From Salvelinus alpinus (taxonomy: Eukaryota > Chordata > Actinopteri > Salmoniformes > Salmonidae), in assembly GCF_045679555.1 (NCBI RefSeq), contig NC_092098.1, forward strand, positions 19,994,038 through 20,058,037: a stretch of DNA of 64,000 nt, read 5' to 3'. Shown one piece after another: positions 13,767-59,895 of the stretch. Position 1 is the stretch's first letter; each line of letters begins with the position of its first letter. The translations under genes and the position numbers were made by a program. The notes below the pieces were generated by a model that searched no databases, was not told the origin of the DNA, and worked only from the letters and a program-made list of their open reading frames with translations.

Positions 13767-33474
<19,708 letters not shown>

Positions 33475-33660
33475 TGTAACCACAACTGCTGTCTTCCAAG
33501 GACGCTCAGCATGTATTTTGGACCTGACAATGAGATTGAGACTGGTGTGGGAATGGAAGGCTCTTCACGTTACGTGCCTTTAAGCCTATATATGTTTTGT
33601 GTTTTTGTATTTATTCATTGTCGTCAGCAGCTTAACAATAAATATTTTTCTATGTGATCT
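33475..33660 (+). promoter_or_regulatory. tmprss13 3' UTR and poly(A) signal
   Basis: After the TGA at 33472-33474, an AATAAA lies at 33637-33642, followed by a T/GT-rich stretch (TTTTTCTATGTG). This gives a short 3' UTR ending near 33660, about 120 bp before the minisatellite. Confidence 0.7.
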
Positions 33661-33779: not shown

Positions 33780-36700
33780 CTCACACTGCAACCTCTTCTA
33801 AACCTAATAACCTGTCTCAGGTTATACCACACTGCAACCTCTTCTAAACCTAATAACCTGTCTCAGGTTATACCACACTACATCCTCTTCTAAACCTAAT
33901 AACCTGTCTCAGGTTATACCACACTACATCCTCTTCTAAACCTAATAACCTGTCTCAGGTTATACCACACTACATCCTCTTCTAAACCTAATAACCTGTC
34001 TCAGGTTATACCACACTGCATCCTCTTCTAAACCTAATAACCTGTCTCAGGTTATACCACACTGCAACCTCTTCTAAACCTAATAACCTGTCTCAGGTTA
34101 TACCACACTACATCCTCTTCTAAACCTAATAACCTGTCTCAGGTTATACCACACTACATCCTCTTCTAAACCTAATAACCTGTCTCAGGTTATACCACAC
34201 TACATCCTCTTCTAAACCTAATAACCTGTCTCAGGTTATACCACACTGCATCCTCTTCTAAACCTAATAACCTGTCTCAGGTTATACCACACTACATCCT
34301 CTTCTAAACCTAATAACCTGTCTCAGGTTATACCACACTGCAACCTCTTCTAAACCTAATAACCTGTCTCAGGTTATACCACACTGCAACCTCTTCTAAA
34401 CCTAATAACCTGTCTCAGGTTATACCACACTGCAACCTCTTCTAAACCTAATAACCTGTCTCAGGTTATACCACACTGCAACCTCTTCTAAACCTAATAA
34501 CCTGTCTCAGGTTATACCACACTACATCCTCTTCTAAACCTAATAACCTGTCTCAGGTTATACCACACTGCATCCTCTTCTAAACCTAATAACCTGTCTC
34601 AGGTTATACCACACTGCAACCTCTTCTAAACCTAATAACCTGTCTCAGGTTATACCACACTGCAACCTCTTCTAAACCTAATAACCTGTCTCAGGTTATA
34701 CCACACTGCAACCTCTTCTAAACCTAATAACCTGTCTCAGGTTATACCACACTGCAACCTCTTCTAAACCTAATAACCTGTCTCAGGTTATACCACACTA
34801 CATCCTCTTCTAAACCTAATAACCTGTCTCAGGTTATACCACACTACATCCTCTTCTAAACCTAATAACCTGTCTCAGGTTATACCACACTGCAACCTCT
34901 TCTAAACCTAATAACCTGTCTCAGATTATACCACACTACATCCTCTTCTAAACCTAATAACCTGTCTCAGGTTATACCACACTACATCCTCTTCTAAACC
35001 TAATAACCTGTCTCAGGTTATACCACACTGCAACCTCTTCTAAACCTAATAACCTGTCTCAGGTTATACCACACTGCAACCTCTTCTAAACCTAATAACC
35101 TGTCTCAGGTTATACCACACTACATCCTCTTCTAAACCTAATAACCTGTCTCAGGTTATACCACACTGCAACCTCTTCTAAACCTAATAACCTGTCTCAG
35201 ATTATACCACACTACATCCTCTTCTAAACCTAATAACCTGTCTCAGGTTATACCACACTACATCCTCTTCTAAACCTAATAACCTGTCTCAGGTTATACC
35301 ACACTACATCCTCTTCTAAACCTAATAACCTGTCTCAGGTTATACCACACTACATCCTCTTCTAAACCTAATAACCTGTCTCAGGTTATACCACACTGCA
35401 TCCTCTTCTAAACCTAATAACCTGTCTCAGGTTATACCACACTACATCCTCTTCTAAACCTAATAACCTGTCTCAGGTTATACCACACTACATCCTCTTC
35501 TAAACCTAATAACCTGTCTCAGGTTATACCACACTGCAACCTCTTCTAAACCTAATAACCTGTCTCAGGTTATACCACACTACATCCTCTTCTAAACCTA
35601 ATAACCTGTCTCAGGTTATACCACACTGCATCCTCTTCTAAACCTAATAACCTGTCTCAGGTTATACCACACTGCAACCTCTTCTAAACCTAATAACCTG
35701 TCTCAGGTTATACCACACTGCAACCTCTTCTAAACCTAATAACCTGTCTCAGATTATACCACACTGCAACCTCTTCTAAACCTAATAACCTGTCTCAGGT
35801 TATACCACACTACATCCTCTTCTAAACCTAATAACCTGTCTCAGGTTATACCACACTGCAACCTCTTCTAAACCTAATAACCTGTCTCAGGTTATACCAC
35901 ACTGCAACCTCTTCTAAACCTAATAACCTGTCTCAGGTTATACCACACTGCAACCTCTTCTAAACCTAATAACCTGTCTCAGGTTATACCACACTGCAAC
36001 CTCTTCTAAACCTAATAACCTGTCTCAGGTTATACCACACTACATCCTCTTCTAAACCTAATAACCTGTCTCAGGTTATACCACACTGCAACCTCTTCTA
36101 AACCTAATAACCTGTCTCAGGTTATACCACACTACATCCTCTTCTAAACCTAATAACCTGTCTCAGGTTATACCACACTGCAACCTCTTCTAAACCTAAT
36201 AACCTGTCTCAGGTTATACCACACTACATCCTCTTCTAAACCTAATAACCTGTCTCAGGTTATACCACACTACATCCTCTTCTAAACCTAATAACCTGTC
36301 TCAGGTTATACCACACTGCAACCTCTTCTAAACCTAATAACCTGTCTCAGGTTATACCACACTACATCCTCTTCTAAACCTAATAACCTGTCTCAGGTTA
36401 TACCACACTGCAACCTCTTCTAAACCTAATAACCTGTCTCAGGTTATACCACACTGCAACCTCTTCTAAACCTAATAACCTGTCTCAGGTTATACCACAC
36501 TGCAACCTCTTCTAAACCTAATAACCTGTCTCAGGTTATACCACACTACATCCTCTTCTAAACCTAATAACCTGTCTCAGGTTATACCACACTACATCCT
36601 CTTCTAAACCTAATAACCTGTCTCAGGTTATACCACACTACATCCTCTTCTAAACCTAATAACCTGTCTCAGGTTATACCACACTGCAACCTCTTCTAAA

Positions 36701-39700
36701 CCTAATAACCTGTCTCAGATTATACCACACTACATCCTCTTCTAAACCTAATAACCTGTCTCAGGTTATACCACACTACATCCTCTTCTAAACCTAATAA
36801 CCTGTCTCAGGTTATACCACACTGCAACCTCTTCTAAACCTAATAACCTGTCTCAGATTATACCACACTACATCCTCTTCTAAACCTAATAACCTGTCTC
36901 AGGTTATACCACACTGCAACCTCTTCTAAACCTAATAACCTGTCTCAGGTTATACCACACTACATCCTCTTCTAAACCTAATAACCTGTCTCAGGTTATA
37001 CCACACTGCATCCTCTTCTAAACCTAATAACCTGTCTCAGGTTATACCACACTGCAACCTCTTCTAAACCTAATAACCTGTCTCAGGTTATACCACACTG
37101 CAACCTCTTCTAAACCTAATAACCTGTCTCAGGTTATACCACACTGCAACCTCTTCTAAACCTAATAACCTGTCTCAGGTTATACCACACTGCAACCTCT
37201 TCTAAACCTAATAACCTGTCTCAGGTTATACCACACTACATCCTCTTCTAAACCTAATAACCTGTCTCAGGTTATACCACACTGCAACCTCTTCTAAACC
37301 TAATAACCTGTCTCAGGTTATACCACACTGCAACCTCTTCTAAACCTAATAACCTGTCTCAGGTTATACCACACTACATCCTCTTCTAAACCTAATAACC
37401 TGTCTCAGGTTATACCACACTACATCCTCTTCTAAACCTAATAACCTGTCTCAGGTTATACCACACTGCAACCTCTTCTAAACCTAATAACCTGTCTCAG
37501 GTTATACCACACTACATCCTCTTCTAAACCTAATAACCTGTCTCAGGTTATACCACACTGCATCCTCTTCTAAACCTAATAACCTGTCTCAGGTTATACC
37601 ACACTGCAACCTCTTCTAAACCTAATAACCTGTCTCAGGTTATACCACACTGCAACCTCTTCTAAACCTAATAACCTGTCTCAGGTTATACCACACTGCA
37701 ACCTCTTCTAAACCTAATAACCTGTCTCAGGTTATACCACACTGCAACCTCTTCTAAACCTAATAACCTGTCTCAGGTTATACCACACTACATCCTCTTC
37801 TAAACCTAATAACCTGTCTCAGGTTATACCACACTGCAACCTCTTCTAAACCTAATAACCTGTCTCAGGTTATACCACACTGCAACCTCTTCTAAACCTA
37901 ATAACCTGTCTCAGGTTATACCACACTACATCCTCTTCTAAACCTAATAACCTGTCTCAGGTTATACCACACTGCAACCTCTTCTAAACCTAATAACCTG
38001 TCTCAGGTTATACCACACTGCAACCTCTTCTAAACCTAATAACCTGTCTCAGGTTATACCACACTACATCCTCTTCTAAACCTAATAACCTGTCTCAGGT
38101 TATACCACACTACATCCTCTTCTAAACCTAATAACCTGTCTCAGGTTATACCACACTGCAACCTCTTCTAAACCTAATAACCTGTCTCAGATTATACCAC
38201 ACTACATCCTCTTCTAAACCTAATAACCTGTCTCAGGTTATACCACACTACATCCTCTTCTAAACCTAATAACCTGTCTCAGGTTATACCACACTACATC
38301 CTCTTCTAAACCTAATAACCTGTCTCAGGTTATACCACACTACATCCTCTTCTAAACCTAATAACCTGTCTCAGGTTATACCACACTGCATCCTCTTCTA
38401 AACCTAATAACCTGTCTCAGGTTATACCACACTACATCCTCTTCTAAACCTAATAACCTGTCTCAGGTTATACCACACTACATCCTCTTCTAAACCTAAT
38501 AACCTGTCTCAGGTTATACCACACTGCAACCTCTTCTAAACCTAATAACCTGTCTCAGGTTATACCACACTACATCCTCTTCTAAACCTAATAACCTGTC
38601 TCAGGTTATACCACACTGCATCCTCTTCTAAACCTAATAACCTGTCTCAGGTTATACCACACTGCAACCTCTTCTAAACCTAATAACCTGTCTCAGGTTA
38701 TACCACACTGCAACCTCTTCTAAACCTAATAACCTGTCTCAGATTATACCACACTGCAACCTCTTCTAAACCTAATAACCTGTCTCAGGTTATACCACAC
38801 TACATCCTCTTCTAAACCTAATAACCTGTCTCAGGTTATACCACACTGCAACCTCTTCTAAACCTAATAACCTGTCTCAGGTTATACCACACTGCAACCT
38901 CTTCTAAACCTAATAACCTGTCTCAGGTTATACCACACTGCAACCTCTTCTAAACCTAATAACCTGTCTCAGGTTATACCACACTACATCCTCTTCTAAA
39001 CTTAATAACCTGTCTCAGGTTATACCACACTGCAACCTCTTCTAAACCTAATAACCTGTCTCAGGTAATACCACACTACGTCCTCTTCTAGGCCTAATAA
39101 CCTGTTGAGGTCACTACATCCTACATCTAAACCTAATAACCTGTCTCAGGTTATACCACACTGCAACCTCTTCTAAACCTAATAACCTGTCTCAGGTTAT
39201 ACCACACTACATCCTCTTCTAAACCTAATAACCTGTCTCAGGTTATACCACACTACATCCTCTTCTAAACCTAATAACCTGTCTCAGGTTATACCACACT
39301 GCAACCTCTTCTAAACCTAATAACCTGTCTCAGGTTATACCACACTACATCCTCTTCTAAACCTAATAACCTGTCTCAGGTTATACCACACTGCAACCTC
39401 TTCTAAACCTAATAACCTGTCTCAGGTTATACCACACTGCAACCTCTTCTAAACCTAATAACCTGTCTCAGGTTATACCACACTGCAACCTCTTCTAAAC
39501 CTAATAACCTGTCTCAGGTTATACCACACTACATCCTCTTCTAAACCTAATAACCTGTCTCAGGTTATACCACACTACATCCTCTTCTAAACCTAATAAC
39601 CTGTCTCAGGTTATACCACACTACATCCTCTTCTAAACCTAATAACCTGTCTCAGGTTATACCACACTGCAACCTCTTCTAAACCTAATAACCTGTCTCA

Positions 39701-41505
39701 GATTATACCACACTACATCCTCTTCTAAACCTAATAACCTGTCTCAGGTTATACCACACTACATCCTCTTCTAAACCTAATAACCTGTCTCAGGTTATAC
39801 CACACTGCAACCTCTTCTAAACCTAATAACCTGTCTCAGATTATACCACACTACATCCTCTTCTAAACCTAATAACCTGTCTCAGGTTATACCACACTAC
39901 ATCCTCTTCTAAACCTAATAACCTGTCTCAGGTTATACCACACTGCAACCTCTTCTAAACCTAATAACCTGTCTCAGGTTATACCACACTACATCCTCTT
40001 CTAAACCTAATAACCTGTCTCAGGTTATACCACACTGCATCCTCTTCTAAACCTAATAACCTGTCTCAGGTTATACCACACTGCAACCTCTTCTAAACCT
40101 AATAACCTGTCTCAGGTTATACCACACTGCAACCTCTTCTAAACCTAATAACCTGTCTCAGGTTATACCACACTGCAACCTCTTCTAAACCTAATAACCT
40201 GTCTCAGGTTATACCACACTGCAACCTCTTCTAAACCTAATAACCTGTCTCAGGTTATACCACACTACATCCTCTTCTAAACCTAATAACCTGTCTCAGG
40301 TTATACCACACTGCAACCTCTTCTAAACCTAATAACCTGTCTCAGGTTATACCACACTGCAACCTCTTCTAAACCTAATAACCTGTCTCAGGTTATACCA
40401 CACTACATCCTCTTCTAAACCTAATAACCTGTCTCAGGTTATACCACACTACATCCTCTTCTAAACCTAATAACCTGTCTCAGGTTATACCACACTGCAA
40501 CCTCTTCTAAACCTAATAACCTGTCTCAGGTTATACCACACTACATCCTCTTCTAAACCTAATAACCTGTCTCAGGTTATACCACACTGCATCCTCTTCT
40601 AAACCTAATAACCTGTCTCAGGTTATACCACACTGCAACCTCTTCTAAACCTAATAACCTGTCTCAGGTTATACCACACTGCAACCTCTTCTAAACCTAA
40701 TAACCTGTCTCAGGTTATACCACACTGCAACCTCTTCTAAACCTAATAACCTGTCTCAGGTTATACCACACTGCAACCTCTTCTAAACCTAATAACCTGT
40801 CTCAGGTTATACCACACTGCAACCTCTTCTAAACCTAATAACCTGTCTCAGGTTATACCACACTACATCCTCTTCTAAACCTAATAACCTGTCTCAGGTT
40901 ATACCACACTGCAACCTCTTCTAAACCTAATAACCTGTCTCAGGTTATACCACACTGCAACCTCTTCTAAACCTAATAACCTGTCTCAGGTTATACCACA
41001 CTACATCCTCTTCTAAACCTAATAACCTGTCTCAGGTTATACCACACTGCAACCTCTTCTAAACCTAATAACCTGTCTCAGGTTATACCACACTACATCC
41101 TCTTCTAAACCTAATAACCTGTCTCAGGTTATACCACACTGCATCCTCTTCTAAACCTAATAACCTGTCTCAGGTTATACCACACTGCAACCTCTTCTAA
41201 ACCTAATAACCTGTCTCAGGTTATACCACACTGCAACCTCTTCTAAACCTAATAACCTGTCTCAGGTTATACCACACTGCATCCTCTTCTAAACCTAATA
41301 ACCTGTCTCAGGTTATACCACACTGCATCCTCTTCTAAACCTAATAACCTGTCTCAGGTTATACCACACTGCATCCTCTTCTAAACCTAATAACCTGTCT
41401 CAGGTTATACCACACTACATCCTCTTCTAAACCTAATAACCTGTCTCAGGTTATACCACACTGCAACCTCTTCTAAACCTAATAACCTGTCTCCGGTTAT
41501 ACTCC
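33780..41505. repeat. 46-bp minisatellite, about 168 copies
   Basis: Unit (split): ACTGCAACCTCTTCTAAACC then TAATAACCTGTCTCAGGTTA then TACCAC. By hand count about 82 units read GCAA, 70 ACAT and 15 GCAT at the variable site, plus one degenerate unit near 39090-39130. Nine units are preceded by CAGATTAT instead of CAGGTTAT. Each unit has an 8-bp inverted repeat, ATAACCTG-TCT-CAGGTTAT. All frames are closed within a few units, so it is non-coding. It starts just beyond the tmprss13 poly(A) signal. Confidence 0.98.
35155..41100. repeat. Higher-order repeat: two ~3.0-kb blocks inside the minisatellite
   Basis: The order of unit variants from about 35155 to 38144 recurs from about 38145 to 41100, offset by 65 units (2990 bp). 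The rare CAGATTAT junctions before units 32, 44, 65 and 68 recur before units 97, 109, 130 and 133. Only single-unit gains or losses separate the two blocks. Confidence 0.85.
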
Positions 41506-41789: not shown

Positions 41790-42058
41790 AGGGTTGCTAC
41801 TCAGTCACAAAGTGGTGCACCTGGCACCAACTACCATGCCCCATTCAAAGGCACTTAAATCTTCTGTCAGGCACACATACACAATCCATGTCTCAATTGT
41901 CTCGAGGCTTTAAAATCCTTTAACCTGTCTCCTCCCCTTCATCTACACCGATTGAAGTGGATTTAACAAGTGACATCAATAAGGGATCAAAGCTTTCACC
42001 TGGTCAGTCCTTCTCATGGAAAGAGCAGGTGTTCATAATGTTTTGTACACTGTCTATA
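41790..42058 (-). mobile_element. Tc1-like fragment, same family as element 6
   Basis: Reverse complement of the left end of the element at 25115: shared features include GAAGTGGATTTAACAAGTGACATC and GAAAGAGCAGGTGTTCATAATG. Only the terminal part survives. It abuts Tc1 element 10's TA site. Confidence 0.8.
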
Positions 42059-42060
42059 TA

Positions 42061-43675
42061 CAGTCAGGTCCATAGGTATTTGGACAATGACACAATTTGC
42101 ATCATTTTGTCTCTGTACGCCACAATGGATTTGAAAGGAAACAATCAAGATCTGCTTTAAGTCTAGACTTTCATCTTTAATTTAAGGGTTTTGTCAAAAT
42201 TATTGTATGAACCGTGTAGGAATTACAAACATTTTTATACATAGCCCCCCAATTTTAGGGGCTCAAAAGTAACAATCACAAATTATATTGTGAGTTTTAA
42301 TACTTGGTTGCAAATCCTTTGCAGTCAATGACTGCCTGAAGTCTGGAACCCATAGACATCACCAGATGCTGGGTTTCTTCCCTGGTGATGCTCTGCCAGG
42401 CCTTTACTGCAGCTGTCTTCAGTTCCTGCTTGTTCTTGGGGCGTTTTGCCTTCAGTTTTGCCTTCAGCAAGTGAAATGCATGCTCAATTGGATTCAGGTC
42501 AGGTGATTGACTCGGCCATTGCAGAACATTCCACTTCTTTGCCTTAAAAAAGTATTGGGTTGCTTTCGCAGTATGCTTCGGGTCATTATCCATCTGCACT
42601 GTGAAGCGCTTCACAATGTTTTGAAGCATTTGGCTGAATCTGAGATGATATTATAGCCCTAAACACTTCAGAATTCATCCTGCTGCTTTTGTCAGCAGTC
42701 ACATCAGCAATAAATACAAGGGAACCAGTTCCATTGGCATCCATATATGCCCACGCCATAACACTACCTCCACCATGCTTCACAGATGTGGGATGCTTCG
42801 GATCATGAGCAGTTCCTTCCCTTCTCCATTCTCTTCTCTTCCCATCATTCTGGTACTAGTTGATCTTTGTCTCATATGTCCACAGGACGTTGTTCCTGAA
42901 CTGTACAGTCTTTTTTAGATGTTTTTTTGGCCAACTCTAATCTGGTCTTCCTGTTTTTGAGGTTTACCAATGGTTTACATATTGTGGTAAACCCTCTGTA
43001 TTTACTCTGGTGAAGTCTTCTCTTGATTGTTGACTTTGACACTGATACGTCTACCTCCTGGAGGGTGTTCTTGATCTGGCCAACTGTTGTGAAGGGGTTT
43101 TTCTTCACCAGGGAAAGAATTCATCTGTCATCCACCACAGTTGTTTTCCGTGGTCTTCCAGGCCTTTTGGTGTTCCTGAGCTCACCAGTGCATTCTTTCT
43201 TTTTAAGAATGTACCAATAGTTGATTTGGCCACACCTAATGTTTTTGCTCTCTCTCTGATGTGTTTGTTTAGATTTTTCAGCCTAATGATGGCTTGCTTC
43301 ACTGGCAGTGACAACGCTTTGGACTTCAGATTGAGGGTTAACAGAAACAGATTCCAAATGCAAATGCCACACTTGAAAAAATAAACTCTAGACCTTTTAT
43401 TTGCTTACTTGTAAATTAACTAATGAGGGAATAACACACACCTGGCCATGGAACAGCTGAGCAGCCAATTGTCCAATTACTTTTGGTCCCTTAAAAAGGG
43501 GGGGGGACCACATATACTGTATTAAAAAGCTGTAATTCCTACACTGTTCACCTGATTTGGATGTAAATACCATTAAATTAAAGCTGAAGGTCTGCACTTT
43601 CAGCTCATTCATTATTTAATTTCAAATAAAATAAAAGTAACGTGGTCAATGTCCAAATATTTCTGGACCTGACTG
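42061..43675 (-). mobile_element. Tc1/mariner element 10, TIRs complete, transposase broken
   Basis: Terminal repeats CAGTCAGGTCCATAGGTATT and its mate TTTCTGGACCTGACTG, each next to TA (42059-42060, 43676-43677). Minus-strand transposase pieces: 43314-43105 (start MSLPVKQAIIRLKNLNKHI), 43108-42872 (TTVGQIKNTLQEVDVSVSKS), 42783-42586 (MKHGGGSVMAWAYM) and 42629-42297 (second Asp in QMDNDPKHT, and [15 protein letters not shown] through to CKGFATKY). Confidence 0.93.
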
Positions 43676-43677
43676 TA

Positions 43678-44776
43678 TACACGTATGTATATATGTACTG
43701 TATATGTTTGTTTGTTTGTCTGTTGGGCCTTATGGGTTGTTTATTTGTATTTATACAACGGGTGGGTTTAATCCTGAATGCTGATGGGTTAAAACCGAAT
43801 TCCAGCCAGTGTCTATTCCACAAGTTACCACCAGCTAAATCTATGACGTTAAAATGCATATTTTCTCTGTTCCATCTGACTGCGCAATCCACTTGTATCA
43901 TCAGCCAAGCAAAGCAATTTATAAACTTGATCTCCATTCTAAAAAGCATCTAGACATTATCTCACATTTCTTTTGCACTAACATTTAGTTTTCAACAGCG
44001 GAGATTTGTATAAACTTTGCTGTCTGTCTCTCTGACATTTGCGAAATTGTTTCAATATTCAAATTCCATCTCCAGCTGTCCTATATTAATGAATGTTTAT
44101 AGAGTCGGGACGAGACAGACAGACAGGCAGGTAGCGTTTCTCAGCCAGTCTAAATCATGAATCAGCTGGCATTATTTTTATGGATATACACAAAGAAATG
44201 TCAATTGAAAAAAGGTAAAACAAAACGAAATGCAGCCAGTTTGCAGTCTTTCCAGCTTCAGTTTGAAGTGATTGTGTTAGCTGTGTTGTTGGCTAGCTCC
44301 TCTGAACAGCAGTGTTCTGACAAGTGAGAACATGTTCTATGCCAGGCAAAATCGTGCCTCATTAGCTCATTGTTATGGATGTGCCCAAATAAATGTCACT
44401 AGAAAACAGTTTAAACAAATGCAAATGCAGCTACCTTGCTGTTACTCTGGCTGCATTTTTTTGACGTGACTGTAAATTAGCAATAGTTGGCTAGCTAGCA
44501 AGCAAGGGATAAAAGCGTTGCCAGCCAGTATGGCAATTGAACATTTAGAATGAACGACTGGGTCGCGTCCATAGATACAGAACTAAAAATACTGAGCGAC
44601 TGGGTCGCGTCTCTAGCAACCAAACCGATAGAACAAACGACCAGCCGGCTTGGGTAACAACCCTAGATTTATGTCGGGACAATATCTTGTGGAAGGATGA
44701 AATAGTATAAATAAATTCATGAAAATAATGTTTTTAATGAAAAAATGTCAATCATTATTTTGAATATGTTAGTAAC
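43678..44776. other. Intergenic stretch, low-copy or unknown
   Basis: No gene recognised. A 16-bp motif (GCGACTGGGTCGCGTC or near) occurs twice at 44550-44620. The region includes a (GACA)n-like patch near 44112-44130. Confidence 0.35.
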
Positions 44777-49729: not shown

Positions 49730-52700
49730 ATGGGTGGAGGTAAGACTGAATCCATTGTCTTCCATTTCTATCATTACTTCAATTGATCCTGTTATACACT
49801 AAAGGAACATCAAGGATATCTATTTTATTGTCAGATTTTTTTTATTCATTACGATTTCCTATTCATTATGATATTTTTGCATTTAGTTGCAGAAACTGTC
49901 ATTCAACAATTGATACTTATTCTTCTTTTTAAATGTTCTTCAAGTATTCATTTTAATGGATGGTCTTTCCTTCTGCCTTTCCCTCAGAAACATCACATGA
50001 CATCTCAGACTACGACTTTAACTATGGTAAGTGTAGAGTGTTTGATGGAATATGTGTTTAGTTAGTAATGTGCATGTGGAAAATGAAGTTAGCTTGAATA
50101 ATATCATGTGCTATGAATGAACGAATTAATGAAATAAATTGTATTTTCATGTCAAATCGCCAGTTGGCAACCAATCTCTTATGGGATTAATTGACACATG
50201 AACAAACATTACAATAATTCACTGTGGTAATTAAAGGATCATTCTTCTTCTGGTGTTCTCTGCATTGCGCGTCGCATAAAGAGTGAAAAACGTTAAGGTA
50301 AAAATCTATACATAATAGTAAATAAGGTTGTCCAAACAATAATTATATCCCTAGAGCAGTAAAATAATATACCTATACTACCGTTCAAAAGTTTGGGGTC
50401 ACTTAGAAGTGTCCTTGTTTTTGAAAGAAAAGCTATTTTTTTGTCCATCAAAATAACATAACATTTATCAGAAATACAGTGTAGACATTGTTAATGTTGT
50501 AAATGACTATTGTAACTGGAAATGGCAGATTTTTTATGGAATATCTACATAGGCGTACAGAGGCCCATTATCAGCAACAATCACTCCTGTGTTCCAATGG
50601 CACGTTGTGTTAGCTAAACCAAGTTGATCATTTTAAAAGGCTAATTGATCATTAGAAAACCCTTTTGCAAATATGTTAGCACAGCTGAAAACTGGTGTTC
50701 TGATTAAAGAAGCAATAAAACTGGCCTTTAGACTAGTTGAGTATCTGGAGCATCAGCATTTGTGGGTTCGATTACAGGCTCAAAATGCCCAGAAACAAAG
50801 AACTTTCTTCTGAAACTTGTCCGTCTGTTCTTGTTCTGAGAAATTAAGGCTATTCCATGCGAGAAATTGCCAAGAAACTGAAGATCTCGTACAACGCTGT
50901 GTACTACTCCCTTCACAGAATAGCGCAAACTGGCTCTAACCAGAATAGAAAGAGGAGTGCACAACTGAGCAAGAGGACAAGTACATTAGAGTGTCTAGTT
51001 TGAGAAACAGACACCTCACAAGTCCTCAACTGGCAGCTTCATTAAATAGTACCCGCCCGCAAAACACCAGTCTCCACGTCAACAGTGAAGAGGCGATCCC
51101 GGGATGCTGGCCTTCTAGGCAGAGTTGCAAAGAAAAAGCCATATCTCAGACTGGCCAATAAAGTCAAAAGATTAAGATGGGCAAAATAACACAGACACTG
51201 GACAGAGGAACTCTGTCGAGAAGGTCAGCATCCCGGAGTCGCCTCTTCACTGCTCCAAAACCGCCATAAAAAGACTGACTATGGTTTGCAACTGCACATG
51301 GGGACAAAGATCGTACTTTTTGGAGAAATGTCCTCTGGTCTGATGAAACAAAATAGAACTGTTTGGCCATAATGACCATCGTTATGTTTGGAGGAAAAAG
51401 GGGGAGGCTTGCAAACCGAAGAACACCATCCCAACCGTGAAGCACGGGGGTGGCAGCATCATGTTGTAGGGGTGCTTTGCTGCAAGAGGGACTGGTGCAC
51501 TTCACAAAATAGATGTCATCATGAGGGAGGAAAATTATGTGGATATATTGAAGCAACATCTCAAGACATCAGTCAGGAAGTTAAAGCTTGGTCTCAAATG
51601 GGTCTTCCAAATGAACAATGACCCCAAGCATACTTCCAAAGTTGTGGCAAAATGGCTTAAGGACAACAAAGTCAAGGTATTGGAGCGGCCATCACAAAGC
51701 CCTGACCTCAACCCTATAGAACATTTGTGGGCAGACCTGAAAAAGCCTGTGCGAGCAAGGAGGCCCACAAACCTGACTCAGTTACACAAGCTTTGTCAGG
51801 AGGAATGGGCCAAAATTCACCCAACTTATTGTGGAAGCTTGTGGAAGGCTACCCGAAACGTTTGGCCCAAGTTAAACAATTTAAAGGCAATTCTACCAAA
51901 TACTAATTGAGTGTATGTAAACTTCTGACCCACTGGGAATGTGATGAAAGAAATAAAAGCTTAAATATATCATTCCCTCTACTATTATTCTGACATTTCA
52001 CATTCTTAAAATAAAGTGGTGATCCTAACTGACCTAAAACAGGACATTTTTACTAGGATTAAATGTCAGGAATTGTGAAAAACTGAGTTTAAATTTATTT
52101 GGCTAAGGTGTATGTAAACTTCCGACTTCAACTGTACACACAAACCATTTACCACATAGAAGCAAAATATTTTTACAATTTAATTATAGGTAGCCCTTTT
52201 TCTTTTATTCTAGGCTTTATCTAAATATTCCACAAACAGAAATACACAATGGACAAAAAAAACATTTCAGTTTCTCCTCATCATTCAGCCACATAATGGC
52301 AGGGTATATCTGCTGTGCTTTCTGGAATAAGAGCAAGCATATATCGTGATAGAAATGGCAATAGAGGATAAAATTAGTTTTGTTCTCTATTTCTTCGAGG
52401 TCACAATAGTTACGTAGTCTTTCCTCTTCCATTTCACCACAGTGAGTTATTTGTGTCTGATTTCCTCACAGACTATCCCTTACTTAGAAGAGGAGGGCTC
52501 ATCTTTGCTGCTGTGTTCTTCTGCCTGGGTATCGCTATCATCTTCAGTGAGTAGTATCCTCCAGGCCAAAGACGTGTCAGGAACAAGCCTAGAACATGCC
52601 TATACCAATGGGTACCCATTCTGCCTCAGATACATGCCTAACATGTAAGGAAAATGTTAAAATGTGTAATTTCCTCTAATAAGGATACAATGGAACTGTA

Positions 52701-54187: not shown

Positions 54188-54532
54188 CTATTCTGTGAAG
54201 CAACATTTGGCCCAGTAACAGCTATTCTGTTAAGCAACATTTGGCCTAGTAACTGCTATTCTGTTAAGCAACATTTGGCCTAGTAACAGCTATACTGTTG
54301 AGCAACATTTGGCCTAGTAACTGCTATTTTGTTAAGCAACATTTGGGCTAGTAACAGCTATACTGTTGAGCAACATTTGGCCTAGTAACAGCTATACTGT
54401 TGAGCAACATTTGGCCTAGTAACTGCTATACTGTTGAGCAACATTTGGCCTAGTAACTGCTATACTGTTGAGCAACATTTGGCCTAGTAACTAACAGCTA
54501 TTCTGTTGAGCAACATTTGGCCTAGTAACAGC
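54188..54532. repeat. 34-bp minisatellite, about 10 copies
   Basis: Unit close to CTATACTGTTGAGCAACATT followed by TGGCCTAGTAACAG, with TTCTGTTAAGC and AACTG variants. One unit near 54490 carries a 4-bp insertion. Confidence 0.93.
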
Positions 54533-54865: not shown

Positions 54866-55153
54866 CCTTGTTAACTCTGAGGTATATGTTAACGTCCAAA
54901 ACCTTGTTAACTCTGAGGTATATGTTAACGTCCAAAACCTTGTTAACTCTGAGGTATATGTTAACGTCCAAAACCTTGTTAACTCTGAGGTATATGTTAA
55001 CGTCCAAAACCTTGTTAACTCTGAGGTATATGTTAACGTCCAAAACCTTGTTAACTCTGAGGTATATGTTAACGTCCAAAACCTTGTTAACTCTGAGGTA
55101 TATGTTAACGTCCAAAACCTTGTTAACTCTGAGGTATATGTTAACGTCCAAAA
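54866..55153. repeat. 36-bp minisatellite, exactly 8 copies
   Basis: Eight essentially identical units of CCTTGTTAACTCTGAGGTAT followed by ATGTTAACGTCCAAAA (288 bp). Because 36 is divisible by 3, frames stay open on both strands (155 codons plus, 129 codons minus), but only as 12-residue repeats. Each unit has two GTTAAC palindromes. Confidence 0.96.
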
Positions 55154-55536
55154 CCAGAAGACCTGTCACAGGCTCTCTTCCCATTTCCCCTGAAAACCGG
55201 AATATCCTGTTGTTGGGAAAATCCTGTTGTTGAGAACTCGGCAGAGGCTATGCCCATACTGATTCATTGATGATGTTGCTGTATAGTGTAGGCCTTGCTA
55301 AACCTTGTTCACCAGACACTTCCGCACACACGAGATTAGGCCTACTGTATGTGAGGGTGTGGCAGTTTGTGGAGCAGAGGTAGAGGACACTAGACATAGA
55401 TAGGAAAATCTGGTTAGATGAGGTGGGATAAAGTTGAATGATTAATCTCCCTGCCAGATGTTAGTAGAGTGTAGCTTCGGGTCTGTTGTTATTGTCAGGT
55501 ATAGGATGAGGTGAAGATTATATAGAGACAGATGTA

Positions 55537-57134
<1,598 letters not shown>

Positions 57135-58289: not shown

Positions 58290-59895
<1,606 letters not shown>

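Follow-up and report, generated by a model that had tools for sequence, protein, structure and literature searches.

Minisatellites consist of head-to-tail units of roughly 10-100 bp that span hundreds of bp to many kb, and in the higher-order repeats of alpha satellite a multi-unit period stands above the basic unit. Many autosomal minisatellite loci are highly interspersed, the human autosomal loci MS32 and CEB1 gain repeats within an allele in events of which many are complex, and the intra-allelic changes of the human minisatellite MSY1 have been explained by slippage or by sister-chromatid strand annealing (all in the excerpts of PMC2599865 used here). An excerpt of PMC2897807 suggests slippage for short duplicated segments and exchange or conversion for long ones, and according to part of the Atlantic cod genome study 21% of the tandem repeats were heterozygous in the sequenced individual (PMC5241972). 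Here we describe a 46-bp minisatellite from Salvelinus alpinus; the window is the whole 64-kb stretch of DNA that was analysed.

Tandem Repeats Finder returned a single array with a period of 46, 168.0 copies and 97% matches, close to the limits of 33780-41505 and the roughly 168 units of the first-pass annotation:

33782-41502, no strand: 46-bp minisatellite of 168 units (Tandem Repeats Finder and unit decoding), taken as non-coding

Cutting at CACACT gave 167 pieces; of these, 166 measure 46 bp and one, made up of two units with small deletions, 85 bp, hence the count of 168. Across the 166 full units 6 of the 46 positions vary. Four unit types account for 163 of the 168 units, namely A (GCAA, 71 units), B (ACAT, 68), C (GCAT, 15) and D (GCAA ending in CAGA, 9; units 25, 31, 43, 64, 67, 96, 108, 129 and 132), and five further units are private. 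The types are interspersed, forming 104 runs over the 168 units, so that with its head-to-tail 46-bp units and scattered variants the locus has the form of a minisatellite. The variant coding proposed earlier, including eight CAGA positions that had been paired with one another, agrees with our unit decoding. GC content is about 40%. The locus is best read as a young minisatellite of high homogeneity that lies in the 3' flank of a TMPRSS13-like gene.

A coding role was rejected: 46 is not divisible by 3, so each forward frame hits the TAATAA of some unit, and no stop-to-stop frame of at least 150 aa lies inside the array. A two-tetrad G-quadruplex on the G-rich strand was dropped as well, the simple GG pattern being unmatched on three A units. 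Outside the array the window holds only 10-13 bp pieces of the unit, and the 300-bp flanks contain no decayed units (312 of 500 shuffles on the left and 337 of 500 on the right scored as well). There was no match of an exact 30-base pattern of the unit to viral contigs, no RNA family at gathering score in the whole window, and no tRNA in the whole window by ARAGORN in its bacterial setting. In the open-licence literature of PubMed Central, two fragments of the unit had no match and no paper on this array was among the matches listed.

To the left of the array, trypsin-type serine protease open frames occupy 30494-33324 on the plus strand, with Pfam PF00089 in all four frames scanned; the last of them, also on the plus strand, has TMPRSS13 as its nearest solved structure (E 8.2e-23). 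This frame ends with a TAA at 33322-33324, and an AATAAA at 33637, presumably the signal used by the TMPRSS13-like gene, is followed 145 bp further on by the start of the array. A CT run of about 213 bp lies among the protease frames (31855-32067), and a second transmembrane-type serine protease frame, with a Trypsin domain and TMPRSS6 and TMPRSS13 as best solved relatives, is found at 151-726 on the minus strand. Also on the minus strand, at 15985-17269, are two overlapping frames, one with RVT_1 (remains of a reverse transcriptase) and the other matching Pfam ALKBH8_N, where the model is probably catching the end of that retroelement. To the right of the array there is an apparently decayed Tc1-like element with inverted ends and a DDE_3 domain (42057-43679), and Tc1-like sequence with Sleeping Beauty-type HTH domains recurs at 56305-56847 and 58973-59575; Tc1-like copies of this kind point to a fish, perhaps a salmonid. 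The window contains further minisatellites of 34 bp x 10 (54188-54532) and of 36 bp in 8.1 identical copies (54866-55155), the latter open on both strands (stop-to-stop 160 and 150 aa).

When the array was written as a string of unit types and aligned with itself, rare units being weighted, the best local alignment paired units 16-92 with units 81-159 (69 matches, 8 mismatches and 2 one-unit gaps, i.e. 69 of 79 columns identical; score 93.6). This is the 65-unit diagonal that the first-pass annotation had predicted for such a string. At a fixed offset of 65, only 63 of 103 units are identical, because the true offset drifts from 65 to 66 to 67 via two extra units. At the DNA level the longest exact runs measure 932 bp (offset 3029), 916 bp (2990) and 773 bp (2983), with a further run of 456 bp at offset 3075, and the offset steps rightward by -7, +46 and +46 bp. 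The CAGA junctions previously reported as pairs, before units 32 and 97, 44 and 109, 65 and 130, and 68 and 133, are all exact, each of the four within the first block recurring 65 units later. The D at unit 25, absent from the earlier account, is without a partner at unit 90, which fits a block starting after unit 25. A 30-unit diagonal (units 3-112 against 33-144, score 33.3) was dropped, being within the range of shuffled and Markov strings.

The simplest cut divides the array into 27 + 65 + 67 + 9 units, with block limits good to within a few units:

33782-35023: unique head, units 1-27 (self-alignment and block alignment)
35024-38013: block 1, units 28-92, 2990 bp (self-alignment and block alignment)
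38014-41088: block 2, units 93-159, 3075 bp, two units more and a net 7-bp loss (self-alignment and block alignment)
41089-41502: unique tail, units 160-168, the last unit with a private A>C (unit decoding and block alignment)
36864-37967: doublet of 12 units within block 1, formed by units 68-79 and 80-91 (identical over 564 bp at offset 552)
39847-41042: counterpart of that doublet within block 2, spanning roughly units 133-158 and longer by two units (exact 426-bp run, offset 552)

The copy and its offset thus stand as first described, and the limits given then (35155-38144 and 38145-41100) sit about 130 bp off, a matter of where the period is cut. Of the shorter periodicity of 11-12 units noticed at the time, the 12-unit one is real, units 68-79 being the same as units 80-91. 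Since this doublet is common to both blocks, it predates the block copy.

Global alignment of the two blocks yields 15 substitutions and 5 gaps. Two of the substitutions amount to one unit-type switch (unit 29 against 94), two of the gaps each stand for a whole unit of block 2 that block 1 lacks (39841-39886 and 40593-40638), while the remaining 13 substitutions and 3 gaps all fall within four units:

38980-39156: divergent patch, units 114-117, with 7 private substitutions and with 3 gaps, of which one measures 7 bp (block alignment)

Outside this patch the alignment covers about 2800 bp in which no private substitution distinguishes the blocks, and the copy, if real, looks recent, as judged from the two extra units and one type switch that alone separate the blocks there. 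If vertebrate DNA mutates at about 1e-8 per base per generation and no conversion took place, the age of the copy would have an upper limit near 50,000 generations; this limit is meaningless if units convert one another, and joined alleles would look the same.

Could such a diagonal arise without any copying of a block? In 200 shuffles, at offsets of at least 20, the mean score was 27.1 and the maximum 43.3, against the observed 93.6; when offsets down to about 5 were admitted, the maxima of 25 draws per model were 51.9 for shuffles, 62.2 for order-1 and 71.7 for order-2 Markov strings. The fraction of equal units at one offset (observed, 0.61) was reached by 0 of 150 shuffles, 2 of 150 order-1 and 0 of 150 order-2 strings, and the longest equal run, 20 units, was matched by none of 450 null strings of these three kinds. 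Simulated slippage by single units reached the observed score in 0 of 400 arrays over three settings, so slippage by single units alone is insufficient. With a diagonal far above both the shuffles and the single-unit slippage models, and two single-unit differences separating the copies, the sequence supports a block duplication, which is how the array had been read at the outset, whether the event belonged to the genome or to the assembly.

We consider it fairly probable, at roughly 0.7, that this is a young minisatellite grown stepwise, whose last large step, as read from one sequence, was a genomic tandem duplication of 65 units. The earlier steps would have been slippage or conversion events on a small scale, spanning one to a few units, and a 12-unit tandem duplication; the tandem duplication of 65 units (2990 bp) would then have followed, and later still one copy would have gained single units or the other would have lost them. 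The 65-unit step would most simply have been an unequal exchange, between sister chromatids or alleles, or a gene conversion with out-of-register strand annealing, with mispairing between like stretches near units 16-27 and 81-92. Units 16-23 (ABCAAAAB) are the same as units 81-88, and would be a likely place for such out-of-register pairing. Against this history counts the divergent patch, which occurs in one of the blocks only. That the mechanism was exchange or conversion, and that the event took place in the genome rather than in the assembly, is what we infer; overall, the array is best read as shaped by the usual turnover of minisatellites, in which unequal exchange or gene conversion adds to smaller slippage.

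One may also consider that the doubling was created by the assembly, two alleles or overlapping contig ends of one shorter array having been joined inside the repeat. We regard this as unlikely, although it deserves serious attention, as the near-identity of the blocks outside one patch, together with single-unit differences in length, is what one would expect of two alleles. The patch itself resembles poor polishing: besides its private changes it contains three unit-type switches (6 substitutions; the split between the two kinds is our reading of the list of alignment differences), whereas the other 164 units hold one private change in all, in the last unit. However, a head of 27 units and a tail of 9 lie outside the blocks, so that the join must lie within the array, and the patch begins 21 units inside block 2 rather than at its border. 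Moreover, unit 117 has CTACATC twice in succession, whereas in other B units the first copy is followed by CTCTTCT, and this doubling looks templated rather than like a random read error. A plain double use of the same reads is opposed by the extra units and the unit-type switch, an argument that leaves the joining of alleles untouched. The patch may be either a badly polished stretch of assembly or a real, repair-derived cluster of mutations; were it a surviving old unit, the block duplication should have carried it along, which did not happen. A single origin for patch and duplication, in which unit hairpins stall replication and one break-induced copying event doubled the 65 units and left the patch as a scar of error-prone synthesis, strikes us as a long shot.

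Very improbable, in our view, is a history without any large event, in which the 65-unit resemblance accumulated bit by bit through many slips, none longer than about a dozen units. In an initial simulation, which applied 400 gains and losses at random and left composition free, the observed score was reached in 0, 6, 17 and 24 of 100 arrays for slips of up to 1, 3, 6 and 12 units, and an equal run of at least 20 units in 74, 74, 45 and 37; we think that these arrays had lost diversity. Fairer simulations were kept near the observed composition, started from 60 or 103 units and discarded arrays outside the limits (188 to 370 made per 150 kept). Here slips of up to 1, 2, 3 or 6 units gave 0 of 150 each for both starting lengths (0 of 1200 over eight settings), and slips of up to 12 units gave 1 of 150 from 60 starting units and 0 of 150 from 103. 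Order-3 Markov strings did score up to 96.8 in 25 draws, above the observed 93.6, a result given little weight, since a model of this order reproduces long parts of the string it was built from. Piecemeal growth is further opposed by the one exact spacing of the four D junctions: four pairs sharing one offset of at least 20 occurred in 676 of 200000 random placements. Compared with a history of medium slips, one large event is the simplest reading.

All A, B and C units (154 of 168) contain an inverted repeat whose 8-bp arms pair perfectly around a 3-base loop, as in unit 1:

33807-33825: ATAACCTG-TCT-CAGGTTAT, example of the inverted repeat (sequence; hairpin fold)

Folded as single-stranded DNA, A and B units reach -5.7 kcal/mol, with 0 and 1 of 200 shuffles as good; in the D units, which make up 9 of the 166 full ones, a G>A weakens the stem, leaving -0.9 kcal/mol. 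A unit that folds into a stem-loop marks a hairpin-unit minisatellite of the MSY1 kind, and the A and B units do fold in this way, with an 8-bp stem and a 3-base loop; the hairpin may help slippage, as proposed for human MSY1 in part of PMC2599865. A further reading, compatible with the others, gives the array a function in the neighbouring gene, as a terminator or insulator, say, with its hairpin under selection. It could draw on the stem's stability and on the array's position 145 bp past the AATAAA, but it is hardly to be credited, since 3 of the 6 variable positions fall among the 16 stem positions, so that the stem is not spared and selection on it is not supported, and since the block duplication also carried the stem-weakening G>A along.

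Should the block copy be real, the growth of the array can be read clearly from its units, a 12-unit copy followed by a 65-unit copy and then by single units, and the array is also a candidate hypervariable marker for the species. Should it not be, the array illustrates how an allele join can hide in a tandem repeat and be brought to notice by unit coding. Existing knowledge of minisatellites is altered in neither case. With alpha satellite the array shares a multi-unit period, although here the 65-unit period is present in two copies only, rather than in the long regular array of a higher-order repeat. The genome of the Atlantic cod, likewise a fish, has many tandem repeats, which caused gaps in its first assembly, as told in part of PMC5241972, a genome-wide survey and not a study of the present locus. 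MS32 and CEB1 are GC-rich loci where germline mutation was measured (PMC2599865, in excerpt), whereas here we deal with a single sequence of about 40% GC. MSY1, as described in the same excerpts, has a 25-bp AT-rich unit, is Y-linked and carries its variants in long blocks instead of interspersed, and the changes described for it there do not include a block copy such as the one of 65 units seen here. In contrast, a hairpin-forming unit, a near-fixed unit length and variant units that can be coded are common to MSY1 (PMC2599865) and to the array described here.
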